64,000 nucleotides of DNA from Arabidopsis thaliana (Eukaryota > Streptophyta > Magnoliopsida > Brassicales > Brassicaceae): positions 11,719,001 to 11,783,000 of the forward strand of contig NC_003075.7 in the NCBI RefSeq assembly GCF_000001735.4, in the 5' to 3' direction. Below, one piece after another: positions 27,666 to 48,227 of the stretch. Under the pieces are notes generated by a model. It saw only the letters and a program-made list of their open reading frames with translations. It had not been told where the DNA came from and did not search any database. The translations under genes were made by a program, and so were the position numbers. Numbering within the stretch: position 1 is the first letter of the stretch; each line of letters opens with the position of its first letter.

Positions 27666-30600
27666 CTAAATTATCTTGTTTACGACAAAGTAGAGTTTGT
27701 CATTATCTCTAATCACTTCAATACTGTCAATCTCAGCTCCATCTTCATTCGTCACCATCGTCTCACTTCCATCAAACCCAAACTTCTCTCCTGTTTTTAG
27801 CACATGCACACCAAAACCCGGTTAGCTCAATAAACCAAAACCAATTTGAACCGGTTTAACACCATATAACCTAAACCGTAATTTGGTGTTTAAACTCTAG
27901 TCACTTGTGTAATTTGTATCTTTACCTGCAATTTTCTTGAGGTCATCAAGTGAAGGAGGAAGAAGAATAAGCTTCCCAGCTTCATTGCAACTTCTTTCTC
28001 TCCTCTCCAATGGATGTCCTCTGTAAATACTCACTCTTCCTCGTTCTTCTTCTTCTTCTTCTTCCACAACTCTTAACTTCTCCAATGGTGTGAATTCATT
28101 ATGTGTATTCACACAAACTACATCTGCACCGTTCGTCGCCAGGAGATTCACCATGTCCATCTGATCCTCCGCCATAGCGACCTGTAAAGCTGTGACGCCA
28201 TGGTGATCCTCTGTGTCGACGTTAAGCCCCTGTTTTAAAAGAGCCTTCATGACTTCTACATTGTTCTGTTTCGCTGCTTCACATAGAAGATCTCCAGCTA
28301 TGTGTGGATCCGATATGGCTGCGAAATGATAAAGGATTCTGAATATCTCGTAATGCTTCGATATTATTGCTTCCCATAGAGCACTATTACCATTCACATC
28401 TGCAAGATTATGATAAAATCTTGTTCTTAAAACATATCAGTAGAACATAAAACATAACGGTTCTTAAGTATGATGTGTTTACCTCTTATGTGGATGTTGC
28501 AACCGTGCTTTAAGAGTACTAAAACACAATCTTCATATCCTCTAGAAGCTGCTACATGCTGAAACATGAATATAAGACGACGAATTAACGGCTGTGATGA
28601 TGATTATGAGTAAGGGTTTTAAATGGCTTATGGTGAAAGCAAAACGTTACCAATGGAGTTTTTCCTTTGGAATCTGTAATGTCAGGGCTTAACTTAGCCT
28701 TAAGTAGCTCATCAAGAAGAGCTGCATTGCCTGTAGTCACCACAGCGATGAGATTTGAGGCAATGTTAGGAGGAACAACATCGGTGTTTTCGCCATTTTG
28801 TTGTGCCTTTAGATCACCAATGTCTAAATTACTCAGCTTTTTGTGATGCTGCAAGAAGTTCTTGAGCATTGTGGCATTGTCTTGTTGTTTAATCTGCATT
28901 GTCTCAATAAGGAAAGATGTTTTGAGTCGGAGAAGCTGTGATAAAGACTTAGTTTGAAAAGTGTAGCTTTGTGGTCTGCAACAAAGTGCTCCAACTTCTC
29001 CAAATATGTCTCCACAACGTAGAGTGCCTAAAACAGACTCTCTCTCCATCTCTGAATCAATGATCTCAACTTCTCCTGACACAATTATGTAAACATCATC
29101 CGGCGCTTCGTTCTGCATAATGACATCCTCTCTTGGTGGTATATACTCAGCCTTCATTTTTGAAACCTAATCACCAAAACCTCTGTTTAGAAAACTTATC
29201 CAGCAAGCCAAAACTCAACCAATCATGTCAGAAAATTAACTCACCAGAAGAAGAAGTATTTCTCTTGAGACGCCTTTGAAGAGGTAAACTTTTTCAACAG
29301 ATGGAAGAAAAAGATGTTGACAAATGCTTTTGTAGATAGATTTTGGGAGCTGGTCAATAAGATGTTGCTGATTTAAGCTCTCTGCTTTAAACCTTAAACA
29401 CATGTAAGCTAATATCTGGTCTTTTAATCTAGGAGGCAATCTGTTTCTGTTAACAAAGTTTGACGCTGCTTCAATGCTATTCCTCTGCACCACCACAACA
29501 ACAACATAAGATCTTCCTTGAGCAAACTATACAAACAGAAAAGACTTAATCTTGTATAGAGCGTGAGACTCACAAATTCCATGGTACGACGAGTCCCTTC
29601 CACGACCAAATTAGTCATGTTACCAATAAGGTAAGCAGTGAGGCCAAGATTGAATAACATGTAGACTGTTATGAATACCATTTCAATAGTGTTGCTTGCA
29701 TGAAGATCTCCATATCCCACTGTGGTCATTGTAGTGATAGACCAATATATAGCTGCAATGTATCTGATGGAAAGACTTGTCTCTGTGAAATTAGGGATCG
29801 CATCAGTCCATGTCTTTCCTTGGTGTGGATATCTGTCTGCTATTAGGTAATAACTGCATCCAGCACAGTGCACTAGAAACAATGTCACCTGTAAAACACT
29901 CAAACCTCATCATGTACTGCAACTACAAAATCTAAAGAAATGTGATCTTGTTCCTTCACTTATAAGTTATTTACTCACTGATAGAAGTCGAAAGCAGCGA
30001 ATCCAGAAATAGCTATATCTTATGTCCTTCTCGAGCCTAAAACAACACCAAAAATAGAATCATTTTGTTACCTTCTTGATCAGAGACATGACATAGAGTC
30101 ATAGGGAATTAGTGTACCTAGTGAAGAGGTGTTTAACTCTTCGAAGTCGCCAAAATCTAAGTAATCCCAAGAGATTACAAGTGATATTTAACGTGGATGT
30201 GCCAGTGATTAAGTATCCAATAGCGTCAAATGGTATAGTTGATGCAACATCCATCAAGAACCATGTTGATAGGTACCTTTAATGAGATATTAAAATAGCA
30301 TTAAGCAAGAACTAACACATTTATTTAAAAAGCTTTCTTTTCACCTAATATATATAAGTAGAATCTTTCTGTTTATTCCAAAAACAGAAATCTATCTAAC
30401 TGATTATGAAAATAAAAGAATCACATGGTGTGGGCTCAACAGTCACCTAAACCTTGTCTTCTTCCACTTAGCTAAAGATATCAGATCAAATAAAAAAGGT
30501 GAAACTAAGATCATGAATAACAATCACTGACCTCACTGCAATCTGTTTAGGTTCACGGACAAGAAGCTGTGTTCTTTCGTCTATGTAAGCAACGAAAAAC

Positions 30601-31091
30601 GTCAAGACAATGTCAACCGCGAAGAACAAGTCTACGATGTTGTCCGCGATACAAAGGTTTCTCTTTGGTGATGAATTCAGAAATGCAACTTCAAAAGGGT
30701 AAACCCACGCAGAGTATGCCACTAAAAGCACCATATAAAATTCCCAGCACCTGAATCAACCATTTAACTTCTTTACGTTATCACTAATTCAAGCATTCTT
30801 TTATGTCACTGAGATATAAAGAATGTATTTTTCAGGTACTCTGTTTCATCAATATGGATGGTACCTGTATCTTGAGTCCATAGGTGAGATGATCCATCCA
30901 CTAGACCTGATGTGATTCTGGTTATAGCTAGCAACACCAAGTGGAGGAAGAATAAGTTTTGACAGATTGTTCAAGCTGAGAGAAGAAGCATCATACTCTT
31001 CTTCTCTTCCTTTTCCTCGATGCTGATGAAAACGCCTGAGCTTCATGTCTGAGGATAAGTTGCAATGAGATGCTGAATACTTGAGGTCCAT
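27666..31091 (-). CDS. AKT2: AKT2, weakly rectifying Shaker K+ channel
   Basis: Ten exons on the minus strand: 30865-31091, 30532-30750, 30118-30276, 29979-30036, 29574-29888, 29245-29484, 28651-29166, 28483-28558, 27926-28399, 27666-27790. They total 2409 nt, 802 residues, the published AKT2 length. Order: cytosolic N terminus, S1-S4 with the basic sensor ([17 protein letters not shown]), the P loop with selectivity filter [13 protein letters not shown]6, C-linker, cyclic-nucleotide-binding-like domain ([20 protein letters not shown]), ankyrin repeats ([51 protein letters not shown]) and a KHA end ([21 protein letters not shown]). AKT2 mediates K+ uptake, and K+ leak after phosphorylation, in phloem and supports sugar loading. 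A run of eight Glu lies before the KHA region. Confidence 0.97.
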
Positions 31092-32084
31092 TATATTTCT
31101 CCTGAACAAAGAAAATTTAGCACTAAGAACAAGAAAGAGAGAGGGAGAAAGAGGTTTTAGTAGATGATATAATAATTGTAATGAAGAAGGAGTTTGTGGT
31201 TTGTATGATGCAAACCGTACGTGGTAGTGGTGGTCCTATTTGTTAAGATTGAAGTGAAATTGGGTAAGCTTTTGTGGGGAACACAAGTTTTAATTTTGGA
31301 GGGATCCAACACAATCAATAAGGCAAAAAAAAGTTGATTGATTTTATGTTTTGGTGATAAGGTAATGAAGTGTGAAAGATGTGGCCCCAAACGATAGAGA
31401 ATTATGCCAAACGTGGTATAATTAGAAGCCTTGAGGGTCCCAATATATCTCTCCATTAACAAATTTAAACTCTATTGAGAATCTAATCAGAAGGAGATTA
31501 ATTAAGAGGAGGACATTCTAATGCTTCGAGAAAACGTTGTGTGCACTTATTAACATTTGACTAGCGGGAATGTGAAGCAGAAGAAAATGAGAGATAAAGG
31601 AATTAGATTCTAAACCGGGACCACTTTTAGGTGAAAAGAAAGCTGATATATATATTTCCTTGTGTGTGTAGTCATCGTCGGTATAGTATTCATCTAGATT
31701 GATCATATATTCTTGAAATACCTTTAGAAACAATCAAATGGTTAGGTTTTAAGAAGAAAAAAAAAGACAGGGTAAAGAGGGATGACATTGTAATTGACCG
31801 ACCTGTTTGTCCTCTGTTATAGGAGAAATCGTCTTTAAGATCCCACTAAGTATCACACTTGCTACATTTGTCTAAACAATTTGTTTTAAGTAATAAGAGC
31901 AACATCTATTGGTGAGAAATTAAAAACGATTGATTCTTCAATAATTAACACGGGATCGTGGATTATATTTTTGGAGTTAAGTGATTCTCAAAATCATTAC
32001 ACTAGAGACTAAGAATTTGGAAGTCAATTCGAGTATATTTAAAACCTGATAATAGATTTGACGAATCACCCTACAAGCAGGCAA
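31092..32084. other. AKT2 promoter region
   Basis: DNA upstream of the AKT2 ATG, starting with a purine-rich leader at 31125-31160. No coding frame resembles a known family. A block at 31895-31960 (AACATCTATTGGTGAGAAAT) resembles the inward part of small inverted-repeat elements, but its partner end could not be found. Confidence 0.5.
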
Positions 32085-32290
32085 ATTGATGTCTCCGACG
32101 ATCGGAAACAGAGCACAGGAGAGGACACGTGGAAGACTGACGTTCAGTGGCGGGTTTCTATTTTTTTCAAAAGCGCGCGAAGAAGATAAGAAAGGGACAA
32201 AGGCAGACCAAGTATGAACCAAGAAAGTTTGCAATTCGACCCTTTAATTTCTGAATATATTTAATTCACCCTTAATTCTCTTAAAAAGAT
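32085..32290. repeat. Duplicated block R, copy 1
   Basis: About 200 bp sharing long blocks with 38795-38995: GACGTCTCCGA-like start, GAAACAGAGCAC, GGACACGTGGAAGA, GTGGCGGGTTTCTATTTTT, CAAAAGCGC and GAAGATAA. Both copies lie about 0.8-1.4 kb upstream of a defensin-like gene. GGACACGTGG is a G-box/ABRE-type core. The block's origin is unknown. Confidence 0.7.
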
Positions 32291-32503
32291 TTCAAAAGAC
32301 CTTTTCAAATCTAGGACTTGCCATTTTAAACGGAAAATTGTCATTTAATAGTCTAATTTTCGATTGACAAAAAAAGAAAGAAAAAAAACAAACAAACAGT
32401 TATTAAGCTTTAACAGATTTTCTAACATTTTTAACGATTCTCTTAGTCAAACCAAAACGATGTCATTTAAGCTCTAATCGATTAAAAATTAGATCTAATG
32501 CAG

Positions 32504-32690
32504 GTCTCGTTACGTATATTATACAAAAAAAAAAATTAGTGTTATCGTTGACATATGTGATAGTGAGTATTTTCAATATTTTAGACTCAATGTGTGTCTC
32601 GTTACGTATACTATATAATAAAATTCGATTTTATTGATGCTAATGACAGATGTGATTTTCAATATTGGAGAATCATTTTATTGTAAATAT
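32504..32690 (+). repeat. Two tandem 92-bp units upstream of defensin-like gene 1
   Basis: The unit begins GTCTCGTTACGTATA at 32504 and again at 32596, a spacing of 92 bp. It continues through ATTATA, TTATTGATGCTAT-like and GTGAGTATTTTCAATATTTTAGA segments. The same pair with the same 92-bp spacing occurs upstream of defensin-like gene 2. Confidence 0.7.
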
Positions 32691-32722
32691 GTTGACTGAA
32701 AGTTATTTGATCTATTTACTCA

Positions 32723-33251
32723 TCTACATATACATTTTTGCAGCACTTTTATGAAATAAATCCTCAAGTTGAGATTTATTTACCATCCAATGCCATTAGC
32801 ATTTAATATTTTAACAAATTTCTTCTCAAATCCAAATATAAATCAATTTTGTTACTAAAATTTAGAATTAAAATAAATATATCACAACAATCATTTAAAT
32901 CTTTCCAAATCTAAAATGTACTACACACTAATATTCTTTTTTAAAGAGATCTATTAGCATTAATGGTATATTATTATTGATATATTTTAACTTTATAAAA
33001 CATTATTAATATTTATCCTTATAAAAAGATATTAAAATATTATGAGACGAGTTATATAGTGGGACGGGTTTGCATTGATATAACGCGGGTTAAATCTTTA
33101 TTTATTATTCTATCATCACTAATTTTTTTTTTACAATATTAATATAAAATTATATAATTTTAATACTAAAAATTTAAAACCTTAAAATTTAAGATTATTA
33201 TATATATAAATAAAATATTTGCTCCGTGGTATACCACGGGTTAAATCCTAG
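32723..33251 (+). mobile_element. Non-autonomous Helitron, 529 bp
   Basis: The element starts TCTACATATACATTTTTGC after an A (32722). It ends with the 16-bp palindrome CCGTGGTATACCACGG (33224-33239), then GTTAAATCCTAG, followed by T (33252): TC start, hairpin, CTAG end and A/T target, the Helitron hallmarks. The homologous promoter of defensin-like gene 2 reads ACCCATTCCAATATA where this locus has ACTCA-element-TTCCAATATA. That gives an empty site that fixes both ends to the base. There is no RepHel coding sequence. Confidence 0.9.
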
Positions 33252-33363
33252 TTCCAATATAAAATTGCATAGTGATGTTTTCTTTAAAAATAAATACAAA
33301 TAACATAAATAAATAAAATAAAATAAAGTTACATGTTTGAGCCTCTCATTTTCCCTTCAGTGC

Positions 33364-33467: not shown

Positions 33468-33816
33468 ATGGGGAGCTTAAGAGTGAGCACATTTGCTGTT
33501 GCAGTAGTTGTATGTCTCTCCATCCTCCTCATGTCTCCTACAGGTACGTAAATTTAGTTAAAAGAAGATTTAGAATAAATACATGTTAATGAAATGTTGC
33601 ATCTTTCTATATATGGACTGGACACAAGTAGATGGGCGTAGAGTGTGTGACAGCGCAGCGGGTTTATGTAGTATGTTGTTCTCTTGCAATACACAATGCA
33701 ATTCATTGGGCCGCAATTTTACTGGAGGCGAATGCTCAGATGCTCGTTTTCCTGGTTTAAGTGTCTGTTATTGCTGCCATAATGTAGAGAGCAGTGCTGA
33801 AATGGAAAGCATGTGA
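33468..33816 (+). CDS. LCR85: Secreted defensin-like peptide 1 (probably LCR85)
   Basis: Two exons, 33468-33543 (signal peptide MGSLRVSTFAVAVVVCLSIL) and one from about 33629 to 33816, giving about 87 residues. The mature part has eight cysteines in the order C-C-C-C-C-C-C-CC with the GGEC block (NFTGGECSDARFPGLSVCYC), fitting four disulfides of a plant defensin-like fold. It ends SSAEMESM, as in its paralogues. The usual acceptor of the family (GGACAG) reads GGACAC here, so splicing must use CAAG/TA or TAG/AT three or six bases later; both stay in frame and drop one or two residues. The role is inferred as an extracellular peptide in defence or reproductive signalling. The locus name At4g22210 is from memory. 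Confidence 0.85.
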
Positions 33817-34954
33817 TTGCAGATGCTAGAAAACGACGTCGCTTTGTGTGTGTGAGTGTGTGTGTTTTGCTATTTGCATGTTTATGCTTTCATTTCATCA
33901 CATCATATGTTTTGAGTGTTTTGCCTTGTACTCTGTTGTGCTTCTGTTTGTTTTGCGTTGTCAAGTCTCCAATAAAGTTGGAGTGTTTCCGTTGACAAAC
34001 GTTTTTGTTAGTTCTTGTTGTATTTAGCTAACCAATGTTTTTAGATTTTTTTTTCTCTTTTTCTTTGTGTTAAACACTAATGTACATGTTTTTGTTTTCA
34101 TAAAGTTTGATGCATATTAGTTAAAAAGGGGTTACTTGTTTGAACATACAACAAAAGTTAAAAAGGTTACTAGTAAGCTAACTAAAGTCTTACAAATGTC
34201 CACTCTAGAAACAAAACCCACAAATTCACAAAAGACGGTTAGAAGCCCAACTAGTAGAGACCAAAAAGGTAGTAAGCCCCACAGGAGTAATAAGCCCTGT
34301 CAAGATGAAGGGAGTGACGAGGAAACAGATAGCTAAGGGTCACTTGTTCATCGAAGATTTTAATCGTGGTTGAATCAGGTTGACCCAATGATCTGGTGAT
34401 TTAGAAGATAGTCCAACTTAACGCTCGAATCAGGTTTAAAAATATTGGTTTATGTAGTATTTTCTTGAATCCCATATAGTATTTTTACTTTTGGTAAATA
34501 AATGTATTATTGAAATATTTAACATGAGGGTCTCGTTACATATATTATATAATAAAAATATTTTATTGATGCTATCGACATGTGATGGTGAGTATATTAC
34601 ATTATTTTAGATCAAATGCAGGTCTCGTTACATATATTATATAATAAAAATATTTTATTGATGCTATCGACATACAGTTAGTGAGTATATTTCAATACTA
34701 TAGACCAAATAATAGGTAGGTGAGTGGATGCCTGGATTAGTGGAAATATTTTAACAATTATTATTCTCTTACGCGTGGAAAGTTTTAAATTACTAAAAAA
34801 GGTAAACTTGGATAATCATTTTATTGTAAAGATATTGACAATTTGACATAAAGTATTTTGATCTATGTACCCATTCCAATATATAAAATTGCATAGTGGT
34901 TTTTTCTTACAAAAAAAAAAGAGTAACATCTAGATGCCCTTTCCCTTGGAGTGC
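33817..34954. other. Spacer between defensin-like genes 1 and 2
   Basis: Holds the 3' UTR of gene 1, an unexplained block at 34100-34440 with no counterpart after gene 2, and the two 92-bp units. A 66-codon Lys/Ser-rich frame at 34136-34336 has no family resemblance and is not called. Confidence 0.5.
34530..34710 (+). repeat. Two tandem 92-bp units upstream of defensin-like gene 2
   Basis: GTCTCGTTACATATA starts at 34530 and 34622, exactly 92 bp apart. Each is followed by TTATATAATAAAAATATTTT and ATTGATGCTATCGACAT. This is the paralogue of the pair at 32504 and 32596, so the doubling preceded the gene duplication. A diverged single unit lies near 39360 upstream of gene 4. Confidence 0.75.
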
Positions 34955-35018
34955 TATAAATTCAGACTCCTTCCCTAAATAAATCACAAAGCGAGAAAGA
35001 AAGACGAACTGATCAGCA

Positions 35019-35406
35019 ATGGGAAGCTTAAGGGTGAGCACAGTTGTTATTGCAGTAGTGGCTTGTCTCTCCATCCTCCTCATATCTCCTACAGGTACTT
35101 AAACAACCAAAATCTTTGATATCCCAAGATCTAAACTAAAACAAATTTAATGAAAAGAAGATCTAGAATAAATACAAGTTAATGAAATGTTGCCATCTTT
35201 CTATGGATTGGACAGAAGTAGATGGGCGTTTAGTGTGTGACACTCCAGCGGGTACATGTACCTCGAGCTCTACTTGCAATGACCAATGCAATACATGGGG
35301 CGGCAATTATAGTGGAGGCGAATGTGCAGATTCAAGCTTTCCTGGTTTAAGTATATGTTATTGCTGCCATTATGTAGGGAGCAGTGCTGAAATGGAAAGC
35401 ATGTGA
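35019..35406 (+). CDS. Secreted defensin-like peptide 2
   Basis: Two exons, 35019-35094 and 35216-35406, 88 residues. The signal peptide is MGSLRVSTVVIAVVACLSIL. The mature peptide begins near EVDGRLVCD and has eight cysteines (VCD, TCT, TCN, QCN, GECAD, SICYCC) and the tail GSSAEMESM. The intron is phase 1 with the family-typical GGACAG/AAG acceptor. It is the closest relative of gene 1; promoter, leader, intron and 3' UTR all align, so the pair arose by a recent tandem duplication. Probably a small secreted antimicrobial or signalling peptide. Confidence 0.88.
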
Positions 35407-36278
35407 TTGCAGATGATAGAAAACGACGCCGCTTTGTGTGCGTATGTGTGTGTTTTTTGCTAATCGCATGTTTATGCTTTCATTTCACATCCTATGTTTT
35501 GAGTGTTTGCCTTTGTACTTTGTTGTTGTGCTTCTGTTTGTTTTGCGTTGTCAAGTATCAAATAAAGTTGGAGTGTGTTTTTAACAAATGATTTTTTTAT
35601 TATTCTTGTTGTATTTAGCTAATTTATTTTATTTAAGAGTGTTTTATTTTTATCAATAATAATAATCATAATTGCGGTTTGTTGTGCGAATACCTATCTC
35701 TGTTTTTTGAGTTTTGAATTTGTTTAGATTTTAAGAGTTATGTGATTTTAGTTTCTTTCACTAATAGCAGTAAATGCTGCCTGGTCTCTTATTTTTTGAA
35801 TATGTATAAAACATTTTTTCTTGAAAAAAAATACAAAATCTGTTTTCAATATTGTAAAAATTCAGTTTAGATATTAAAGTTATATTTATTTATGCTATGG
35901 AAATATGATGAGCTTATTTAGCAATTTTCAACCATATACACAAATTAATAACCAACTGTAAACTAATGTTTCATGGTTCTAGTATTCTAGAACATATAAT
36001 AATAGGTGAGCTGGTGGAGATTTTTAGTAATCATTACTTTCTAACACGATTAATGTTAATTTTTAAAATAAATTTGTTAATTATTATAAAGATATTTGAC
36101 ATCAAGTTACATGATCTCTTTTGCTTAAAAAAATATATAGTGATGTAAGGAGAGCATCAAATGAATAGATAAACAAATAACATCTAGATATGCAAAATAT
36201 GGAGTAGTGGATAGTAAATGTAAAATAAAATAAAGTAAATTACGTCTTCGAGCTATTTCTCTCCTTCCCTTCGAGTGC
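35407..36278. other. Spacer between defensin-like genes 2 and 3
   Basis: 3' UTR of gene 2 followed by AT-rich DNA. No feature beyond the TATA-bearing promoter at the right end. Confidence 0.5.
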
Positions 36279-36357
36279 TATAAATTAAGACTTTTTTGCT
36301 AGTTCAATCACTCACAAAAAAAAAAGAAACAACAAAAGAAGAACTGAGAGATAAGTC

Positions 36358-37015
36358 ATGGGGAGCTTAAAGTTGAGCACAGTTGTTGTTACTGCACTAG
36401 TCGTTTGTCTCTCCATCCTCCTCATATCTCCTACAGGTACGTAAAAAAATACCAAAAATCTTTGATCAAAGAGCTAAAATGAATACATGTTTATGAAAAC
36501 GTTTGTCTCTTTGTATGGATTGGACAGAAGCAGTGGAGGGGAAACTGAAAGAAGAATGTGAGAATGTCCCATATGGTTTCTGTCCGTTTTGGTTATTCAA
36601 TCCGAGATCCGAGGAACTTTGCAAGGAGAAATGTAAGAGGTTTAAGTCAGAAACATCCGAATATTATGGTGGTTTTTGCACGCCTAATGGTCCACCTGGG
36701 GGAGTGTCTCTCACGGCGACTTGCAACTGCTGCGTTCGGGAAAAAGTCAGCCCTCCTGAAATAGAAGCAGTGGAGGGGAAACTGGAAGTATGTGACAATT
36801 TGCAAATCGGTATGTGTCTGTGGTATTTATGGCCTTGGTATGATTCCACTAAAAGATGCGAAGAGACCTGTCAAAAACAAAATAACAGCCCATCGGGAGC
36901 AAGATACCGTTATTATGGTGGTTTTTGCACGCCTATTGTTAGAGGAACTGGATTCTTTATCCATGGGGCTTGCAACTGCTGCATTCGGGATATAAAAAAG
37001 CAGGCATCATCCTGA
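36358..37015 (+). CDS. Two-domain secreted defensin-like protein 3
   Basis: Two exons, 36358-36436 and 36528-37015, 188 residues, about twice the size of its paralogues. After the signal peptide (MGSLKLSTVVVTALVVCLSI) come two cysteine-rich modules. Module 1 runs from EAVEGKLKEECENVPYGFC to TATCNCCVREK; module 2 from EAVEGKLEVCDNLQIGMC to GACNCCIRDIKK. Both contain YYGGFCTP. The DNA repeats too: GAAGCAGTGGAGGGGAAACTG occurs (split here) at the start of each module, about 238 bp apart. Module 2 has replaced the usual ESM tail; sequence for that tail survives out of frame just beyond the stop. Likely secreted; whether it is cleaved into two peptides is unknown. Confidence 0.85.
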
Positions 37016-37666
37016 TTCCTGAAATAGAAAGCATGTGATTTCAAAAACACACACTTTGTGTGCGTGTTTGTTAGTCTGTTATGTGTGAGTGTGCATTGCT
37101 GGTGACATCCGACATCTATATTTGAGTGTTTTGCTTCTGTATGTACTCGTTTTTCCTCATTGATCAAGTTTCAAATAAAGTTGGATTTTCTCCCATAATA
37201 TTAGAGTGTATTGCTTCTATTTTGTGTACCAACCAACTACCAAGTTATTTATTAACCGTGCAAGTTTTTCTATCTACAATTAATGAACTAATTAGTGTTA
37301 TCTTGCGCATACGTAAAAAATGAAAGTTTTGAGGGTTTTAAGTGGTTTTCGGATTATAGATTTGAGTTTTCGATTTTTGGTTTTTGGTTTCTCAAAAAGT
37401 TCATAAATGTGGGTTTTTAGATTTTTGTTAAAGAATTTGGTAAAACTCTCAAAATTTAGATTTCCTATTCTTTTCTTCCTTTCTAAAAACTAATAAGAAC
37501 ATCAAACACCAAGTGGGTGTCAAATTCAACTCTTTGAAATAGCAACGACCTCAAAAGAGTATTTATTCCACACTAGTCATTTACTTAATCGAAACAGAGA
37601 GCAAGTTATAATGTGAAAACACCAAAACTGAAAATTGTAGACTTGTCTTTAAAAATGATACATCTC
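37016..37666. other. 3' flank of defensin-like gene 3
   Basis: 3' UTR and AT-rich DNA. From about 37590 the sequence becomes recognisably similar to the stretch right of defensin-like gene 4 (around 40110-40190), the start of the duplicated ISU flank. Confidence 0.55.
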
Positions 37667-38316
37667 TAGGGATGTTGTGGTGGGTAAAAAAACCTAACCC
37701 AGCCCAAACCCATAAAAAAACCGCCCATAAAAATTCCAATTTAAAAAAACTCGAATGGGTTTTAGTACTTGTGGGTAAAACCCAGAAAAACCCATATAAT
37801 CCAGAACTACCCGTGGGTACCCAAATGTTATACAAATATATTTTAAATTGTATTTATTTTCTGTATTCTATATTGTATATATTTGGTGGGAAAATGTTGA
37901 ATCACGTTTTTGGCGGAAAAATGTTGAATCGCGTTTTTTGGGGGAAAATGTCGAATCGCGTTTTTGGCGGGAAAATGTCGAATCGCATTTTTGGCGGGAA
38001 AATTGTTGAATGTCGTTTTGGCGGGAAAATGTTAAATTGCGTTTTGGCGAGAAACTGTTGAATCGCGTTTTTTGGTGGGAAAATGTTGGATTTCGTTTTT
38101 GGCGGAAGAATGTGAAAAAAATTGACGAGAAAATATTGATTCACTCGAAAAAAGACCAAAAAAAACCTGTTGGTACCCATAACTCAATGAGATAAACCCA
38201 TATGGGCTTTATTTATTTGGATACCCAGCCCATTTTAAGCCTATGTTTTTTTCCCACAAAAAGTTTATGTGGGTTTTGGGTACCCAATGGGTTTTAACCC
38301 ATTATTAACATCTCTA
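37667..38316. mobile_element. Non-autonomous hAT-like element, 650 bp, with internal tandem repeats
   Basis: Terminal inverted repeats begin TAGGGATGTT (left) and TAGAGATGTT (right, reverse-complemented) and continue with TGGGT/GGGTTAAAACCC-type blocks. Flanks are TACATCTC (37659-37666) and TACATCTT (38317-38324), an 8-bp target duplication with one change, as hAT elements make. Subterminal regions are rich in GGGTACCC and AACCCA. There is no transposase. Sequence on both sides matches the ISU1 3' flank, so the element landed inside a duplicated copy of that flank. Confidence 0.8.
37885..38145. repeat. Array of about nine 26-28-bp repeats carrying E2F-like motifs
   Basis: The unit is approximately GGCGGGAAAATGTTGAATCG plus CGTTTTT. 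Three units contain a perfect TTTTGGCGGGAAAA (37962-37975, 37989-38002, 38016-38029), which matches the E2F site on both strands (TTGGCGGG and TTCCCGCC). Others differ by one or two bases (GGGGG, GGCGA, GGTGG, GGCGGAA). The array is the core of the hAT-like element. Confidence 0.8.
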
Positions 38317-38374
38317 TACATCTTCCAAAAAAGAAAGAGAAACCATTCCAACACAATAGAACATTAGACAACTA

Positions 38375-38652
38375 GAGGGCAAAAGCAAATCATTCTTGGA
38401 TATTTTTGTCAACAGAGTTTCATTACAAACCATAGGTTGTATGTATCCTCTTCTACTTCTCCCCTGTTTTCACCGTCATATACACGTTATGGTTTACTCA
38501 TTGGTTAAAAGAAAATCAAGCCTGTGTGGTTTATCCGGCTGTTGCATAACCGTTTGTTTTCACACACTTCTCCTTGTAGTCTTTCACAGCTGCCTTGATG
38601 GCGTCCTCCGCCAACATACTGAAATGGAGCTTGACTGGTGGGAGAGAAAGAA
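38375..38652 (-). pseudogene. ISU exon-3 relic 1
   Basis: Closely similar to the 3' UTR and last coding exon of ISU1 (40270-40590). The minus strand reads PVKLHFSMLAEDAIKAAVKD then YKEKCVKTNGYATAG and a stop. The third cluster-ligand cysteine of the LHCSML motif is Phe here. Similarity ends within GGTGGGAGAGAAAGA, before the exon boundary. Exons 1 and 2 are not found to the right, so the copy is a fragment. Similarity to the left continues as 3' flank, interrupted by the hAT-like element. Confidence 0.85.
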
Positions 38653-38794
38653 ATGGGAACCTTCTATACATTCATTCTTCCCAAATATGTTGGAACAATT
38701 GTTTAAGTTAATAAGAGAAACAGCCATTGGTAAGCAATTTTACTTCGTAAAAATAAATCACATGGTAGACTTGAAGCATCCCTAAGTCAGATTG

Positions 38795-38995
38795 ACGTCT
38801 CCGAAGATATGAAACAGAGCACTGGAGTGGGACACGTGGAAGATTGACGCTTTAGTGGCGGGTTTCTATTTTTCAAAAGCGCCAAGAAGATAAAAAGGAA
38901 CAGAGAACAGACCGAACCAGGAAAACTTTGCTATCTAAACCTTTTATTTTTAGATATTTTTAATTTTGACCCTGATTCTTATAGAAGACATTTTC
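38795..38995. repeat. Duplicated block R, copy 2
   Basis: Partner of the block at 32085-32290, sharing TTGACGTCTCCGAAGAT-like, GAAACAGAGCACTGGAG, GGGACACGTGGAAGATTGAC and GTGGCGGGTTTCTATTTTTC segments. It lies to the right of (upstream of) the ISU relic and about 0.7 kb before defensin-like gene 4. Confidence 0.7.
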
Positions 38996-39576
38996 ATCAC
39001 CCTTTATTGATCTTGGAGTTAGTATGTCACATGGAACTAAAAGTAATAATTAATGTTTTTTTTAATATAAAGAACTCAATGTAAAATTATACATATGAAC
39101 TTTGAATAAAATATATTGTTGTGAATTTATATTATTTAGAATTCTTTTTTGGTGAATTCCCCAGAAAAAATCTTCGGATTTTGTTAATAAGAATCTAAAA
39201 ATAAATTAATTACGGACTTGTCGCGGAAAAGTAGTTCCTTCAACATCATCCCTCATAATCGTCTCAACGCAAAGCGAAATAGAAGAAAAAGCATGAAAAC
39301 CTAACTATACAGTTAGGTTCTCAATACACGTGAGAAATTCTATGTGTGACATGCCGGTACGTCTTGTTACATAATCTTATTATATGTACTGTAGTTATGG
39401 ACATATAGCGAGCATATTTCACGTTAAAACTTAAAAAGTATTGTAGACGAGATGGATAATGTTTGATTTGTGTCTAGAAAATATAATTATAGGCGAGGTG
39501 GATCACATCGTGGAGACTCTTAATTAGATATTAATAATGTAGAAGTAGTGAAGAGAAAATGTGTTTGGTTGAGACG
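38996..39576. other. Upstream region of defensin-like gene 4
   Basis: AT-rich. A diverged 92-bp unit (CGTCTTGTTACATAATC) lies near 39360. No gene seen. Confidence 0.5.
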
Positions 39577-39624
39577 TATAAATTGAAAGCCTTTTGCTGA
39601 TAAAATCACAAAGAGAGATCAGCA

Positions 39625-39966
39625 ATGAGGAGCTTGAGGTTGAGAACAGTTGTTGTTGCTACAATAGTCGTTTGTCTATCGGTCCTCCTATCTCCCACCG
39701 GTACGTAAAATCAAGATCTCTAACTACATAGATACACAAGTTTTTGTTATAAATGTATGTGGCTGTTCGTGTCGACAGAAGTGGATGGAAGCTGTGACTT
39801 CCCATTAGGTGCTTGTACTCCTTTCCGTGATTGCAAGGAGAGTTGCATCAAGTTCAAAACGAGGGCTGGACAGACTTTTTTTGATGGCAAGTGCCGTCCA
39901 AGGGATAGGCCGAGCGTGTGGACGGCTTGTTTCTGCTGCTATTATGATAGTATCGGTGCTCAATAA
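39625..39966 (+). CDS. Secreted defensin-like peptide 4
   Basis: Two exons, 39625-39700 and 39779-39966, 87 residues. The signal peptide is MRSLRLRTVVVATIVVCLSV. The mature part begins about EVDGSCD and has eight cysteines (SCD, ACT, DCK, SCI, KCRP, ACFCC). It is basic in the middle (CIKFKTRAGQTFFDGKCRPR), unlike its acidic or neutral paralogues, and ends DSIGAQ without the ESM tail. It is the most diverged single-domain member, and its neighbours to the right (ISU1) are the intact form of what lies broken right of gene 3. Confidence 0.85.
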
Positions 39967-40443
39967 GAAAACATGTGATTCCGAAACCATATAATCGACA
40001 TCGCTTTGTTCTACTCTGCTTTGCTTTTGTTTGTTGTACTCTGCTTAATCCAATAACAGAGATAACGTTTCGAATAAAGGTTGGATGTTTTGTGACAATT
40101 CAGGAACAGAGAGATGATAAGTCAAGCTACACCCACATAGTTCCATGCAGAGAAAATTATAATGTCAAAATTGAAAATTGAAAATTTGTCTGTCAAAGTT
40201 GTAATTTATAAACCTCCCAAAGAAGAGAGAAAACATTACATCACATCGGTGCATAAAACAGCAAAAACTACAGGGCCGAAGCAAAATCATTCTTACACGT
40301 TTCTGTGAACAGAGTTTATTCTAAAATACTCCTTAAGTCTTGAACATTACAACATACCATAGGTTGTATGTATCATCCTCTTCTACTTCTCCCCTGTTTT
40401 CACCATCATATACACATTATGGTATACACACTAGTAAAAGGAA
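39967..40443. other. 3' flanks of defensin-like gene 4 and ISU1
   Basis: Convergent 3' ends. The ISU1 3' UTR covers roughly 40250-40443. No other feature. Confidence 0.5.
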
Positions 40444-41881
40444 TCAAGCCTGTGTGGTTTCTCCTGCTGCTGCAGCACCATTTGTCTTCACACGCTTCTC
40501 CTTGTAGTCTTTCACAGCTGCCTTGATAGCGTCCTCCGCCAACATACTGCAGTGGAGCTTGACTGGTGGGAGAGAAAGATGCTTTGCGATTTCGCTGGCA
40601 AAATAAATCACAGAAAGAGAAGCACACATTCAGAGTAAGTCTTCAGATATTGAGAAACTCCATGACAGAAATCACAATGTTTACTTTGTCTAAGAAAAAG
40701 AAGTCAAGAGGTCTGCATCATTATAGGCTGGAAAACCTTAAATACCATACAAACCAAACCAGTAACCAATCTCAGACCAATTGACCAAAATCCAGTAACT
40801 AAGTTCATCTAAACAAAATAATCACATTACTTCGTCTCAGGTATGTCAACATTCAATGAGTGCAGCAATTAGATAACACGAGTGTTCATATTTATGTTAA
40901 AAATCTGCAAAACATGAATAGGAACACAGGGCATACTAACCAGCAACCAATATTGTACCAACAGACAAAGTCCAGTGACCAAGTTCCTCAAAACAAAATA
41001 ACAGTCATGAAACACAGTAACTGGTATATCAACATTTAATGAGTTTAACCAATTAGACAACACTGATTGGCATAACACAACAACTCACAACAGATTATGT
41101 TAATATCTGCATAAAATGAATAGAAACAGACGGTACTTACGTGTTTTTGATGGTCAGAACATCCTCCATAGCTTTGCCTTTCACCCATTCAGTGGCTGAA
41201 AAAAACGTAAAAATGAATCATACATTAGATAACAGCAACAAATCCCCAGAGAGAAGATAGCTCCCACATAGAAGCTAAGCCAGAAACTGACGACATCGCA
41301 TCAAAAAGATGAAATCTTTCTCAATAACATTAGGAGACTAGGAGTATTACAAATTCAGCATTGAATCACCAATAAAAACGTCTCAACTGACCAAATCATG
41401 CACTAATTTGTCATTAACGACACCAATCCCAAATTTGAACACCGAATCTCTACACGAACCCATCAATTTAAAACCTAATTTCTCCATTTGAGAAAGACTA
41501 ATCAAAATCCCTAATTGAAATCATTTAATTTCTCTAATTCAATCCTCAATCGAACAAAACACGAAATTAGAATATAAACATACCAACAGATGAAGAAGCG
41601 ATGGCTGAACCACAACCAAAAGTCTTAAAGCGAGCATCAACGATTTGACCAGTCTTCTCATCGACCTTGATTTGAAGCTTCATCACATCACCACAAGCGG
41701 GAGCTCCTACGAGTCCCGTACCAACGTTGGGATCATTCTTATCGAAAGACCCAACGTTGCGGGGATTATCGTAGTGGTCGATGACGTTCTCATGGTAGGT
41801 TCGGAGGATACCAACAGACCACGGTGTTGATTGACGTGACGTAAGCCCTAGGGCCTTCTTCGCAGCTTGCTTGAGCATCAT
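40444..41881 (-). CDS. ISU1: ISU1, mitochondrial Fe-S cluster assembly scaffold
   Basis: Three exons on the minus strand: 41584-41881, 41141-41195 and 40444-40594, 504 nt, 167 residues. A short Arg/Ser-rich presequence (MMLKQAAKKALGLTSRQSTP) directs it to mitochondria. The IscU-type body follows: YHENVIDHYDNPRNVGSF, GAPACGDVMKLQI (Cys 1), FKTFGCGSAIASSS (Cys 2), the LPPVKLHCSMLAEDAI block (Cys 3, preceded by the chaperone-binding LPPVK motif) and DYKEKRVKTNG. ISU1 holds the nascent cluster received from the Nfs1 complex before transfer via HSCA/HSCB chaperones. It is an essential housekeeping gene inside a fast-evolving peptide cluster, with two fragmentary paralogous relics nearby. Confidence 0.97.
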
Positions 41882-43291
41882 CGTGTTTTTTTTAGGGTTT
41901 CGGAAGTAACTTTTGCTCCGCTGATTTTGGTAATGAGAAATGAGATCGGACTTTTCCTTTAAGGGTTGTGAGAAGAAGTCGGTTTGGTTTCAGACAGAGA
42001 GATAAGCGAGGGGACACGTGGACGGTTTAGATGGTTCTGAGATATTTGCTATTTCTTTTTTCTTTTCTTTTTTTCCTTTGATTTTTTCTTTTAGTATTAG
42101 CTAACTTGAGACGCTAACCTAAACTTTAGATTGAGATTTTGATAAGTTGACTTTTTCTTTTCAATTATATTTTTGATATCCTTCAAATGTTATAGTTTAT
42201 AAGACCTATCGCTCATAAATCGTACTTTTCAAGTTTACAATTGAATCGGAACATACTTCTTTTACGCAAACAATAGTCATGATGATTTAGTATGTGTATA
42301 GAAAGTTCTCAAATTTCAAGTGATGAAACAGTCTATTTAAAATTAACCTTAATTCATTAACGTATAGTTAATCATAACAATTAAACCTATAAGTTATAGG
42401 CTATAACAACATTATAGGCGAATGTCTTCGTCTAGATAAGTTGTGAGGAGCCATCTACGACTGTGCATTGTCCTATGGTAAACATATATTTGGTTAATGG
42501 TTGATCTTGATCATTTGAAAAGTCGTTTTGCAACATTAACAAATATATTTGTCTGTTATTTTTAGACGGCACCACCGGAACGGATTGGAAGCAAGATCAA
42601 GTAATAGATCTGAGATTTGGAAAGCTTCTCGTGAAGCGAGTTAGATAGCAAATTAAGTTGAGGATTGAGAAATATGGATTTTAAAATATATTAATATGTA
42701 TTTTTTAAAGTAGTACATATAGATTCGTAAATATAAAGTTATTTTAAGACACGAGTTCATTATGCATCTATACCGTGAAACATGTGGTACCGAGAAACAA
42801 ACAAAAATTTAAGTTTCATTATGCATGCAATTGGTTTCAGATATAATATTTTTTTTTGGACAAAGGTTTCAGATATACTAATAAAAAGCAAAAACAAACA
42901 AACAAATATGATTGAAGGAAAAATGAATCAATGATGATGATGAGCGCTTGGTCTCCGTTGATTTAGCATCTACCACTTTCTTTGGCATTGTTGATTAGTA
43001 TCTAAAAGTTGACTAATTTAATGAAGAAATCAAACGAAAGATTCTAAATATCTATCTTTATCTACACAATACAATAGTATTGATCATCTACAATAAGAGT
43101 CGGGGGTGTATTCAGTTAACTATTTAAAATGATTTGTCTTAAAATCATATATCTTACGTCATTTTAATCCCAACGACTTGTCCAGTGCTAGCTATAAATT
43201 AAAAACTCGCCTTTTGCCTAAATGAATCAATCACAAAGAGAGAGAGGGAAACAAAATAGAAAGAAAGAAGCTAAGAACTAATAAGCAATTA
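41882..43291. other. ISU1 promoter, fibrillin relic and upstream region of defensin-like gene 5
   Basis: A GGGGACACGTGGACGG G-box lies at about 42012. Blocks at 42600-42650 and 42962-43022 (GGCATTGTTGATTAGTATCT) recur upstream of gene 6 at 44365-44415 and 44144-44199, so upstream DNA was duplicated with the genes. No intact gene seen. Confidence 0.55.
42418..42480 (-). pseudogene. Relic of the fibrillin last exon
   Basis: CGAATGTCTTCGTCTAGATA and the following GTTGTGAGGAGCC..TGTGCATTGTCC match the intact fibrillin exon at 47159-47211 (CGAATGTCTTTGTCTAGATA, GTCGTGAGTAGCC, TGCGCATTGTCC). In the intact gene this encodes [19 protein letters not shown]. The relic carries small length changes, so the frame is lost. 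Nothing more of the gene is recognisable around it. Confidence 0.75.
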
Positions 43292-43657
43292 ATGGGGAGC
43301 TTAAGGTTGAGCACAGTCGCTATTGCAGTAGTCGTTTGTCTCTCCATTCTCCTCATATCTCCTACAGGTACGTAAAAAAAACCAAAGTCTTTGATCCCAA
43401 GATCTAAAATAAAACATGTTTATAAAATGTAGTATCTTCCTATTGATTGGACAGAAGTAGATGGGAGGCAAGTGTGTGACTACGATAAAGGTGAATGTAA
43501 TAGTTATGAGAAGAGCTCTACTTGTATTGAACCATGCAAGCAATTGGACAGCAAGTTTATTGGAGGCCGATGCATACCTGTTGGTGGTATTACTGGTATG
43601 GGGTTATGTGTTTGCTGCCGTGATGTACAGCGTGGTGCTGAAAAGGAAAGCATGTGA
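43292..43657 (+). CDS. Secreted defensin-like peptide 5
   Basis: Two exons, 43292-43367 and 43455-43657, 92 residues. The signal peptide is MGSLRLSTVAIAVVVCLSIL. The mature peptide begins EVDGRQVCDY and has eight cysteines (VCD, ECN, TCI, PCK, GRCIP, LCVCC) and the tail GAEKESM. Introns and 3' UTR blocks (AAAACGACGTCACTT) align with genes 1, 2 and 6. Probable secreted peptide of defence or signalling. Position fits At4g22230 from memory. Confidence 0.88.
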
Positions 43658-44724
43658 TTTGCAAATGATACAAAACGACGTCACTTTGTGTCTGTGTTTT
43701 GCGATTTGCATGTTAATGATTTCAGCTCAAAATCTATATTTGAGTGTTTGCCTTCTACAGATCTGTTTGTTTTGAATTGTCAAGTCTTAAATAAAGTTGG
43801 ATTGTTTTCCGATTATGACCTGACCTATTCATCATATTTTTTTATTTTTTTTATTTTTGTCTAATTGAAATCTAAATCGGAGGGGAAAAAATCAACAAAA
43901 AGAATTTTATACGAGTACATTAATTCTTGCAAATGTTAAATTATCCGTCTTATGATTTATACAAATAAGAATTGAATTAAGGGAGAAACTGATAAATACT
44001 TGTTCCTAACAAAGTTTAATAGATGTGTTGAGAAAACACACTTGTCCGTCGGTATAGACACTTATTCACCAATTTAGAACAATATGTAGATGTAGTTAGC
44101 TAGTTTATTAACTATAGTTTTTCTATTTAGCTAATTGATTTTATTTAGCATTTACCACTTTTTTTGGCATTGTTGATTACTATCTAAAAGTTGACTAAAC
44201 AAAATACGTGTTTAACGTTTTTTTAGCTGTCATAATATAGTAATATACAATTCGAGTTGGTATAATAAATATCTGATCGCATCTAAAAGGAAATAGTGAA
44301 TGGAACGACTTACAAAGAAGTATAATAATCCAACTATTTTTAAAATATCTCCTCCATGCATCCAGATCTGAGATTTGAAAATCTTCTCGGGAACCGGATC
44401 GGAGTGAAATTAGTTATACAATTTACAACTATATATAAATTTTAAGAATTTGATTTAAGAAAACATATGTCAATGAAGTCGTAACAGCTAGTCACACGAC
44501 AGTAAAACGAACAACCTAAACGACGACCAGTTACAGCAATAGTAAAACGAACAATATATAGTAAAATCTGATCGAAGTCGCTAACCGTATATTACGGGTC
44601 GCAGTTGCTAGCGTGCGAGTTTACATATAGAATACAATAAAATTGCATGTTTGGTTAAGCTCTCTCCCAACTAACTATTGCTAAAAAAGAAAGAAGCTAA
44701 GAAGAACTAAGAGATCAGCAAGTA
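43658..44724. other. Spacer between defensin-like genes 5 and 6
   Basis: 3' UTR of gene 5, AT-rich DNA and the duplicated upstream blocks shared with gene 5. No gene seen. Confidence 0.5.
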
Positions 44725-45089
44725 ATGGGGAGCTTAAAGCTGAGCACATTTGCAATAGTCGTTTGTCTCTCCATCCTCCTCATATCTCCTATAGGTACGT
44801 AAAAAAGACCAAAATATTTTGATCCAAAGATCTAAAATAAATACATGTTTATGAAATATTGTCTCTTTGTATGGATCATACAGAAGTGAATGGATGGGGA
44901 AAGTGTGACTTACGAAAGGGTTTATGTAGACTCGCGGACACGATCTCTACTTGCGATGTACCATGCAGGGCAGTGGACAGCAAGTATCATGGAGGCGAAT
45001 GCTTAAATGTTGGTGGTGGTCAAGGGATATGTTGGTGCTGCCGTGATTATGATGCTGCAAAGAGCGGTGCTGAAAAGGAAAGCATGTGA
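44725..45089 (+). CDS. Secreted defensin-like peptide 6
   Basis: Two exons, 44725-44794 and 44884-45089, 91 residues. The signal peptide is two codons shorter than in the paralogues (MGSLKLSTFAIVVCLSILLI). The mature peptide begins EVNGWGKCDL and has eight cysteines (KCD, LCR, TCD, PCR, GECLN, ICWCC) and the tail SGAEKESM. It is closest to gene 5 (VDSK, GGEC and AEKESM shared). The TATA motif is weaker than in genes 1-5 (TATAGAA or CAATAAA near 44630), so expression may differ. Confidence 0.87.
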
Positions 45090-46569
45090 TTGCAGATGAT
45101 AGAAAACGACGTCACTTAATTTGTGTGTCTGTGTGTTTTGCTATTTGCATGTTTATGATTTCATCTCACATCCATGTTTGAGTGTTTGCCTTCTACTTTG
45201 GGGGTATCAAAATAAAGCTTTGGCTTTTGCAATAAAACTAGCTGTCTAAATTGTGTCGTTGTTTTGTTTCTTTGTTCCTTCACTTTAAACTTTTTCAGTT
45301 TTTTTTTTATAAAAAAAAATTCAAACACAAATACGTAATGATGTAGACATGTATTGTGTTACGTTTGTGTTCGTTATAATTTTTGTAATTTTTAGGTGTC
45401 ATATACTGATAAAATGCCAAAAGTAGTCTGATATATATGGACTATAGTTGCTTTTTTTAGTGGTTGTCATCTTAGTCTTAGATCCATAAATTTATTTAAA
45501 TTATTATACGAAGAAGGTCGGATGATGAAAGTTACTATTATTATGATAGTGTTTTAGATAATACGAATACAATAATAGTAATCAATGTATATCTTGTTTG
45601 ACCGTGAAAAGTTTTAGACCCAAGAAATGGACCCTGTTTGTTAGGTGGTGGCAGAAATACTTAATTCCTTTCCAAAAATAAAACACGATTATTTTTCTTT
45701 TATACGTTTGCATAAAATTACAAAATTACAAAAGAGAACTAGTCCTTGTTGTTATATGCTGTAATTCTAATGGACCATTCTTATTTTTATTTTGTACTTA
45801 ACATGATAAAATTTATAAAAATACTGTAAAACATTAATGAGTGAAGAAGATTCGGGAGATACACTTTGCATGGCTGCACATGATATGTCTTAAAACAAGT
45901 GACTTTTAAGACAAACCACAATTATTTTCTCTTTTTTCAGTAGTTTGGCAGATTACAAATTTATTGCGAATTTATCATCTAAAAGACTAAAATATAGTAA
46001 TAGAAAATAAAAAAAATCATCTGCAAACCTAAACAAAAGAATGTATTTTTGACAACAAACTATATTATTACTAACGGTAGTTAGAGCGGACAAATACGTC
46101 AGCGATTTAGTCCGCTCTATTTTTAAAATGGGCAATAAACCGTTACGAACTAATTATATTTGTATGTAAAAACAGTCCGTAGTTAATCTGCAGTGGTTTT
46201 TTTTTTCTTTTTTAAATTCGCACCTATACAAATATGAATGATAAATAAAAAACAGTTCAAACCGCAAACGAATTTGTCCGCCTTAACCGTTGCAACCATT
46301 CAAATCCTATATAGCAAATATGTGCTACAATGATAAAGAGAGACATAGAAGAAAAAGAAAGTAATAAAACTCAGTTTACAGATTATTCTTCATTGTTATC
46401 ATTATTATTGTCTCCTCCACTTTCAGTTTTGGCTCTGATTCATGCTCTCCGCATCAAACCCTCCACCAAACTGTACATAACAAAACACAGTTTCAAACTT
46501 TCAGTTATATGAGAAATTTGGTCAATTTAGGTTTCTTATGTTCTTGTCTGAATTGAGTTTTTCCTTTAC
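45090..46569. other. Intergenic right of defensin-like gene 6
   Basis: 3' UTR of gene 6 and about 1.3 kb of AT-rich DNA without a supported gene. Confidence 0.5.
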
Positions 46570-46855
46570 CTGATGGTCTCTAAATAAATTACAGAAAGAA
46601 CAAACACATTCAAAATAGGGCTTCAGATATTGAGAAACTCTATGGCATATGCTAGAAACCTCGAGTACTATACTAACAAGTATCCCATACCATACTAATA
46701 GAACCATTTCCAGTGACTGAGTCCCTCAAAAAAAAAATGATAGGCATCAAGCACAGAGTGAACCAATTAGACAACAAAATGACAGTCATCATCTCGATTC
46801 TTATCGAAAGACCCGACGTTGCCGGGATAATTCTCATGTAACTCTTGCATCGGTA
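46570..46855 (-). pseudogene. ISU relic 2 (intron 2 and exon-1 pieces)
   Basis: 46580-46646 (AAATAAATTACAGAAAG, CTTCAGATATTGAGAAACTC) matches ISU1 intron 2 at 40603-40670. 46695-46790 (CCAGTGACTGAGTCCCTCAA, AACCAATTAGACAACA) matches 40968-41060. 46795-46845 (ATTCTTATCGAAAGACCC, GACGTTGCCGGGATAATTCT) matches exon 1 at 41733-41800. The order is that of the intact gene. Exon 2 and most of exon 1 are missing, and exon 3 is replaced or eroded. A second, older ISU copy. Confidence 0.8.
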
Positions 46856-47089
46856 CATAGTTTACTTTCTAAATCAAACAGAAGAGAATGAAATTCTAAA
46901 ACACTTGAATTTTGTGAAAATCTGAGACACATTTCATAGGCCATAGACGAGATGTTCTGTAGTAGTTAAAAACATTATATTCCTTATCATCGAGTTAATA
47001 ACAACGATTAAGAAGTAAACCTACAACCACACTATATATTTGTCTCACTTAACACAACGACAAGAGAGAGACATATATTTTGACCAAGT

Positions 47090-48227
47090 TCAAGGATTCA
47101 AGAGAGGGCTTCCTTCTTTGATAAGCACAAAGACACTTCCACCGTCTCCTCTAGAGATCCGAATGTCTTTGTCTAGATAAGTCGTGAGTAGCCAAGACTG
47201 CGCATTGTCCGCCGGCAAAGAGAATTTCAACGGTGGTTGGCTTGATATGGTTCTAGCCACAGACGAGGCTGTGTCTTGCACCGAGGTAAGTAACCCTCTG
47301 ATCGGGTTAAGATCAATCTTTTGACCAAGAACCTCTACATATTCCGGTATCTCAATAGAATCCGTTAGCTGAGGCGTCCCAATTACGCCTTGCTCAAACT
47401 TAATCTGCAAGAAAAATGAAATCCAAAACATTACTGAAAACGTTTCAAGATGTTGATATCAGATCATGGTCGATGAATGGTCAATTTACCTGGACGCGTT
47501 TAGGGCTTCGGATTTCGAATTTAGCGTTGGTGCTAATCGAGTTTGTACCTAAAGGACCAGCGAAACGAACAGAGTTCTGGACGGTGAAGTTATCTGAATC
47601 AATGGTTTGAGAGATCTCATCGACTTTTATTAACGGTACGATTCCTCGTGATAGCAACGGGAACAAATTCACGAACGATGTGTAGCTGCAAAAGAGGTTT
47701 AACCAAATCAAAAGCAGCACGAGATCTACCATTTGAATCCAGAATCCTACGAATGATGCTATCTACAGGACTACAAGAGAAAGTTTTCACCGGAAAAAAA
47801 CTTACGCGAGGATCCATTTGCCGTTGAGAAGGAAAAGAGCTTCCGTCGGAGCTGGAGTAGGGTTCTTAGACTCGAGCTGTGTGATTAGATCTCCGATTTC
47901 AGCTCTGGTTTCGCTCGATGCGCTTAAACCTCGATCTGTTCCGTACAACGAATCCACGAGCGATCTCTTTAGCCGCTCCGTCTCTTCCACGTCTTCAATT
48001 GCTTCCTCCGCCGCCAATAGAGCTGATCCTATCTCTCCCGTATCTGTGGCTCGGACTTTGAAAACTCTACGGGGGGAAACAGCGATTCCTCCGGTGGAGA
48101 TCATCGGGCGGTGAATAATTGAGGTCACCGGTACCAGAAACGGAGGCTTGGAGATAGATTTAGAGTTCGGTGAGATTGAAACTCTGGTTTGGCAGCTAAA
48201 TTGGGTGGACAATTGTACCGTCGCCAT
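47090..48227 (-). CDS. FBN1B: Plastid lipid-associated protein, fibrillin 1 type
   Basis: Three exons on the minus strand: 47806-48227, 47490-47685 and 47090-47404, 933 nt, 310 residues. The Ser/Arg-rich N terminus ([20 protein letters not shown]) is a chloroplast transit peptide of roughly 55 residues. The PAP/fibrillin domain includes [78 protein letters not shown] and the C-terminal [20 protein letters not shown]. Fibrillin 1 proteins coat plastoglobules and take part in carotenoid storage, lipid remodelling and ABA-linked photoprotection. Of the two close Arabidopsis copies this matches At4g22240 by position. A short exon-3 relic at 42418-42480 marks a lost duplicate. Confidence 0.93.

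Follow-up and report, generated by a model that had tools for sequence, protein, structure and literature searches.

In plants, filler-DNA (templated-insertion) repair of double-strand breaks leaves ectopic DNA at a join, a flanking deletion and a few letters shared by the joined sides, and filler DNA together with template switching has been described for the joins of transfer DNA (T-DNA) integration, published filler often being templated from the flank (PMC8871565). Tandem clusters of defensin-like (DEFL) genes in Arabidopsis encode secreted cysteine-rich peptides and involve local duplication, and reciprocal silencing of a duplicated gene with one surviving copy is described as a cause of hybrid incompatibility (PMC8042742). 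Here, we analyzed a 64,000-nucleotide stretch of Arabidopsis thaliana chromosome 4 (the window, C4:11719001-11783000), in which all six DEFL genes lie on the plus strand and ISU1 and a fibrillin gene on the minus strand, accompanied by two ISU relics and one fibrillin relic. An initial annotation had explained this arrangement by repeated duplication of a three-gene DEFL-ISU-fibrillin unit followed by reciprocal loss. We propose instead, with a probability of about 0.42, that today's ISU1 is a daughter copy lying inside its own parent gene, a single multi-template repair having split the original ISU and inserted an intact replacement, DEFL genes and a piece of another chromosome.

As in filler-DNA break repair, both an ectopic genomic copy at a join and a deletion beside it are present, but the inserted DNA is here much longer (~1.1 kb without a nested repeat, up to 7.9 kb if all of it arrived in one event), comes from another chromosome rather than the flank, and is known only from an old scar. 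Unlike other Arabidopsis DEFL clusters, this one has carried along and broken its housekeeping neighbours, and unlike reciprocally silenced duplicates, its copies share a single tandem stretch, where losses of different ones would presumably segregate nearly as one locus. A genomic counterpart is an ancient paralogous segment at C4:1932144-1964248, where a fibrillin, which we take to be FBN1a, and ISU3 have the same order and orientation as the local fibrillin-ISU1 pair, and hence the pair is old. There, the two genes are ~30 kb apart and far older (ISU1-ISU3 synonymous divergence, dS, 1.3), and no DEFL match was found in that segment, the DEFL5 protein search (10 of 10 matches within the cluster) reaching close relatives only. 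By sequence divergence, the local copies are much younger than the ISU1-ISU3 split.

Self-alignment (blastn of window positions 27001-52000 against itself) recovered both ISU relics, the fibrillin relic and the DEFL genes in the order given by the initial annotation, along with the local duplication. Between 31000 and 49000, it gave 40 off-diagonal matches at E<=1e-3, while 18 of 20 block-wise dinucleotide shuffles of that region gave none and two gave one each (40.1 and 39.2 bits); the relics are thus real and far above shuffles. Their alignment direction is the same as that of ISU1 and of the fibrillin, respectively, and the common order and strand of the members are borne out by self-alignment and gene models alike. 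Relic 1 (self-blastn 38315-38651 versus ISU1 40207-40579, 305 bits) is a 3' fragment that stops at ISU1 base 40579, exon 3 of ISU1 starting at 40594. Relic 2 consists of three colinear pieces (46582-46647, 46670-46756 and 46797-46831; 68.9, 47.3 and 50.9 bits), which correspond, in order, to ISU1 40601-40667, 40933-41017 and 41735-41769; ISU exons 2 and 3 were not seen in it. Since relic 2 begins at ISU1 40599-40601, the two relics hold complementary parts with a gap of ~20 bases between them, and they look more like the halves of a single broken gene than like copies lost separately. Both are closest to local ISU1 rather than to distant paralogues (relic 1 coding identity, 127/138 with ISU1, 96/134 with ISU2 and 90/119 with ISU3; relic 2 score, 338 against 159 for ISU2 and 177 for ISU3), and the fibrillin relic leans only slightly towards the local fibrillin (232 versus 200). 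The refuting case set out in the initial annotation, relics nearer to paralogues elsewhere, thus does not hold for ISU.

Each ISU relic ends at foreign DNA. At most 42 bases beyond the end of relic 1 starts block A', a copy of block A from upstream of the K+ channel gene (Kimura two-parameter distance, K2P, 0.199+-0.028), and in a search of the 119.66-Mb genome with 38360-39000, the A' part otherwise matches, among the matches listed, this channel-upstream place only. No fibrillin piece was found beside relic 1; A' stands in its place. Relic 2, in turn, adjoins filler that spans from the cut 3' untranslated region (3'UTR) of DEFL6 to its own first bases, where similarity to chromosome 3 stops with AAA in common; ~3-4 letters are common to both sides at the joins (counted by eye and without a chance test). 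Between ~45200 and 46582, the end of the DEFL6 3'UTR, the spacer and ISU exon 3 were not found. The filler has 74% identity with chromosome 3 in both pieces of the gapped alignments, and at ungapped positions 85.8% in the longer piece and 93.2% in the shorter. Its source runs from the final intron and exon of CHUP1 through the 3' flank to the DNA ahead of an aspartyl protease gene; an exon lying further upstream in CHUP1 matches PDB 8wag ('Protein CHUP1'), and the last exon, read from the sequence, is presumably the end of CHUP1. Because this source is a continuous genic stretch, copying would have run from chromosome 3 to chromosome 4. A transposon was also considered as what split ISU and was rejected: in a genome search that scores best candidates only, 45197-46584 has one long relative besides itself, the two chromosome 3 pieces in a genic region, and for this reason we read it as filler. 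Dispersed copies were seen for the nested repeat only, which accounts for 37 of the 41 matches in that search.

The fibrillin relic, which the initial annotation had placed in its middle unit, is only a small part of the last exon. In self-blastn, it comprises 42419-42473 versus 47160-47210 (59 bits), i.e., 55 secure bases or ~115 with a weak extension, and no second full fibrillin copy was seen.

Table 1. Coordinates of features in the window (positions counted from its first letter)
Feature	Position	Strand	Basis and remarks
Shaker-type K+ channel gene, left flank; presumably AKT2	28585..31235	-	open frames; cNMP_binding Pfam match; best PDB sequence matches KAT1, AKT1
Block A, DNA upstream of K+ channel gene, source or sister of A'	31839..32294	.	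aligned to 38657-38996
Young dispersed repeat, insertion upstream of DEFL1	32722..33253	.	98% identical to copy elsewhere; flanks match 34808-34908 without it
DEFL1, 87 aa; presumably LCR85/At4g22210	33468..33816	+	two-exon model
DEFL2, 88 aa, probably At4g22212 (assigned by order)	35019..35406	+	gene model
DEFL3, two-domain, 188 aa, probably At4g22214 (assigned by order)	36358..37015	+	gene model; internal repeats
hAT-like element with 27-bp minisatellite, beside relic 1	37664..38315	.	dispersed copies; classified and delimited by eye
ISU relic 1: downstream spacer, 3'UTR, most of exon 3	38324..38651	-	286/322 identical to ISU1
Block A', copy of A adjoining relic 1	38657..38996	.	secure from 38694
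DEFL4, 87 aa, probably At4g22217 (assigned by order)	39625..39966	+	gene model
Intact ISU1 coding sequence, At4g22220	40444..41881	-	exons 41584-41881, 41141-41195, 40444-40594
Fibrillin relic, part of last exon only	42419..42534	-	secure to 42473
DEFL5, 92 aa, probably At4g22230 (assigned by order)	43292..43657	+	gene model; Pfam AtDEF-like
DEFL6, 91 aa, probably At4g22235 (assigned by order)	44725..45089	+	3'UTR similarity ends ~45196-45200
Filler, ectopic copy of C3:9357518-9358772	45197..46584	.	nested dispersed repeat ~46074-46318
ISU relic 2: two intron 2 stretches and piece of exon 1	46582..46831	-	self-alignment, ISU1 comparison
Intact fibrillin; presumably FBN1b/At4g22240	47090..48227	-	open frames, PAP_fibrillin Pfam match

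Under the history that we favor, the ancestral locus would have read K+ channel, A, one or more DEFL genes, ISU and fibrillin. A break in the original ISU, within exon 3 and close to its border with intron 2, would have been repaired by synthesis from several templates and then end joining, leaving an insert of ~7.9 kb; break-induced replication, which according to a published figure legend plants do not have (PMC8871565), is not the mechanism meant. At the left end, a copied tract running from A' through DEFL4 and ISU to the fibrillin 3' end would have been joined to the 3' half of ISU; at the right end, a chromosome 3 patch (the CHUP1 3' end) would be followed by a DEFL tract joined at its 3'UTR, and the two tracts would meet between the fibrillin fragment and the DEFL5 upstream region. 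Relics 1 and 2 would thus be the halves of the original ISU and ISU1 the inserted copy, while the fibrillin relic would never have been a whole gene, the intact fibrillin being the original; DEFL gains, gene conversion and three mobile-element insertions would have come later. A single event would explain the chromosome 3 patch, the truncated fibrillin, A' and the complementary ends all at once. The sequence itself shows the segments and their order, the joins to A' and to chromosome 3 and the complementary ends of the relics; the number and order of events, the direction and the mechanism of break repair are our interpretation. By a hand estimate, two independent breaks would fall within 22 bp in the ~1.78-kb transcribed region with a chance near 2.5%. 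The core of this history, in which break repair placed a duplicate bearing today's ISU1 inside the original gene, falls just short of an even chance.

Relative ages were compared through mismatches, which number 57/327 in A, 25/186 in relic 1 noncoding sequence, 42/205 in relic 2 introns and 123/868 in the main part of the filler, with 11/136 and 3/35 in the relic exons. Six of seven Fisher tests gave p>0.05 (0.080, 0.17, 0.26, 0.42, 0.91 and, for the relic exons, 1.0) and one gave 0.031, the 3' part of the filler having been left out; on these counts, the divergences of A, the relics and the main filler part are of one order. When relic 1 was aligned over a wider stretch, K2P was 0.273+-0.043 in the spacer and 0.092+-0.033 in the 3'UTR.

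Several observations weigh against a single repair. The introns in relic 2 seem older than the main part of the filler (p 0.031, uncorrected) and marginally older than relic 1 noncoding sequence (p 0.080). Where the filler adjoins relic 2, its 3' part is still less diverged (16/235, K2P 0.071+-0.018) and looks younger or constrained, constraint on the CHUP1 side being a candidate cause. The flanks of DEFL3 and DEFL4 differ by K 0.47-0.64, more than relic 1 does from ISU1. Between A' and DEFL4, the spacer can hardly be aligned with that between A and DEFL1 (z 2.8, 0/100 shuffles), and the ISU1-fibrillin relic and relic 2-fibrillin spacers give z 2.3 (3/100 shuffles); spacer alignments at z 2.1-2.8, which make up five of seven comparisons, were not used as evidence of homology. 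The exceptions were the regions upstream of DEFL1 and DEFL2 (z 22.8) and the DEFL3-relic 1 versus DEFL4-ISU1 spacer, which reaches z 10.4 with the hAT-like element omitted and part of relic 1 included, its left flank alone giving z 2.1. In addition, the fibrillin/DEFL5 join could not be placed, and a 7.9-kb repair from three templates is much to claim.

Next in rank, and a serious contender at somewhat worse than even odds, is a stepwise history, in which a DEFL-ISU-fibrillin tandem duplication joined inside fibrillin, a second duplication ran from A to ISU exon 3 so that relic 1 was truncated from birth, and the last ISU copy then broke separately, was healed with chromosome 3 filler and lost its 3' half. 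The seemingly greater age of the relic 2 introns and lesser age of the filler fit these steps better, tandem duplication is typical of DEFL clusters, DEFL1-2 and DEFL5-6 show further local duplication, and a hidden tandem copy has been published for this locus (PMC6529160). Such a history nevertheless needs three events instead of one, and two ISU copies must have broken at places only 22 bp apart, through chance or a fragile site.

The whole-unit history of the initial annotation, with several duplications after which ISU decayed in the outer units and fibrillin in the middle one, agrees with the order and strand of the members and with the ISU relics being nearest to local ISU1, yet we consider it improbable. 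Its ISU fragments are real, but they are complementary parts instead of two comparable worn copies, and they end at foreign joins, with A' after relic 1 and chromosome 3 DNA in the missing half of relic 2. These joins, together with the complementary relics and the tiny fibrillin relic, make repeated units with reciprocal decay not the best reading. Nor does every supposed unit hold ISU and fibrillin or their relics: in comparisons of nine intergenic gaps with ISU and fibrillin (18 in all), no further piece stood out, including any fibrillin trace beside DEFL1, beside DEFL2 or between DEFL5 and DEFL6; 2 of 100 shuffles came up to the best comparison (32300-33340 versus ISU), against 11-87 of 100 for the other 17. 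That an assembly or collapse error makes the pattern is very improbable, as the copies are diverged (about 75-92% identical), which collapse would not be expected to create, and the relic joins lie outside DEFL3, even though the Col-0 reference is reported to be collapsed at At4g22214, where the true locus holds one degenerate and one complete copy (PMC6529160). The window must therefore be without some sequence around DEFL3; Nd-1 seems to hold at least one more degenerate copy at that locus (PMC6529160).

The case shows how a rapidly evolving cluster of peptide genes can duplicate and disrupt the essential genes beside it, and it sets decayed copies apart from those that were incomplete from the start. 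If one event did produce the locus, it would be a natural, datable instance of kilobase-scale multi-template repair in which an essential gene was replaced by its own copy. Today's ISU1 and fibrillin look like ordinary intact genes, with NifU_N in ISU1 exon 1 and PAP_fibrillin in two fibrillin exons (Pfam), and no function is demonstrable for the relics. ISU1 is listed as likely embryo-lethal, only knock-down by RNA interference having been achieved so far (PMC3721309). Among the titles and abstract openings listed, we found no mention of the ISU or fibrillin relics of this locus, and none of three terms for the cluster occurs in PMC9856046.

On the left flank, the K+ channel gene may reach further left than its tabulated frames. 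Blocks A and A' were also compared with the 5' regions of ISU1, ISU2, ISU3, the fibrillin and the channel gene as possible ISU, fibrillin or channel promoter relics, and in 10 of 10 comparisons the score was equalled or beaten by 15-108 of 200 shuffles; A is therefore read as channel-upstream intergenic DNA. A core of the two blocks (38785-38965 and 32079-32266) looks better conserved than its surroundings and has a common CACGTG motif (by eye), and it might be a candidate regulatory element of the channel gene. Farther right, the repeat upstream of DEFL1 is a recent insertion, given its 98% identity to a copy elsewhere and the uninterrupted paralogous site upstream of DEFL2, which is continuous at 34874. 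The minisatellite inside the hAT-like element has 8.6 copies, a near-perfect 8-base direct repeat flanks the element (by eye), and the spacer aligns across the gap once the element is omitted.

Among the DEFL genes scanned with Pfam (DEFL1, DEFL5 and DEFL3 exon 2), AtDEF-like (PF25052) was matched by DEFL5 at 25.8 (cut-off 25) and below it by DEFL1 at 19.6, and DEFL3 exon 2 had no match. DEFL3 carries two cysteine-rich domains within one exon, a provisional form given the published collapse of the reference at this gene (PMC6529160). For the mature domains, dS is 0.18-0.42 among the four genes, of six, that were compared. The mature peptides mostly have nonsynonymous divergence (dN) above dS, as in DEFL1-DEFL6 (0.469 versus 0.181, Fisher p 0.044); three other pairs tested gave p 0.07-0.22, and DEFL1-DEFL2 did not have dN above dS. 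Positive selection has already been published for the group containing LCR85 (PMC5731061). The 5' and 3' parts of the genes give different pairwise distances, which suggests gene conversion among them and agrees with recombination tracks published for that group (0 (1) in the GARD column; PMC5731061); because of this conflict, no DEFL tree was used to order the duplications. Published lists of genes that respond to Fusarium oxysporum include four DEFL genes from this cluster, with changes of 2.5- to 6.5-fold and, in the case of At4g22214, 38.7-fold, the latter in roots at 6 days according to the text (PMC4388846). Finally, a 59-base repeat, 93% identical, lies upstream of DEFL5 (42958-43016) and DEFL6 (44140-44198), and a second small repeat (42606 and 44364) occurs there in swapped order relative to it.

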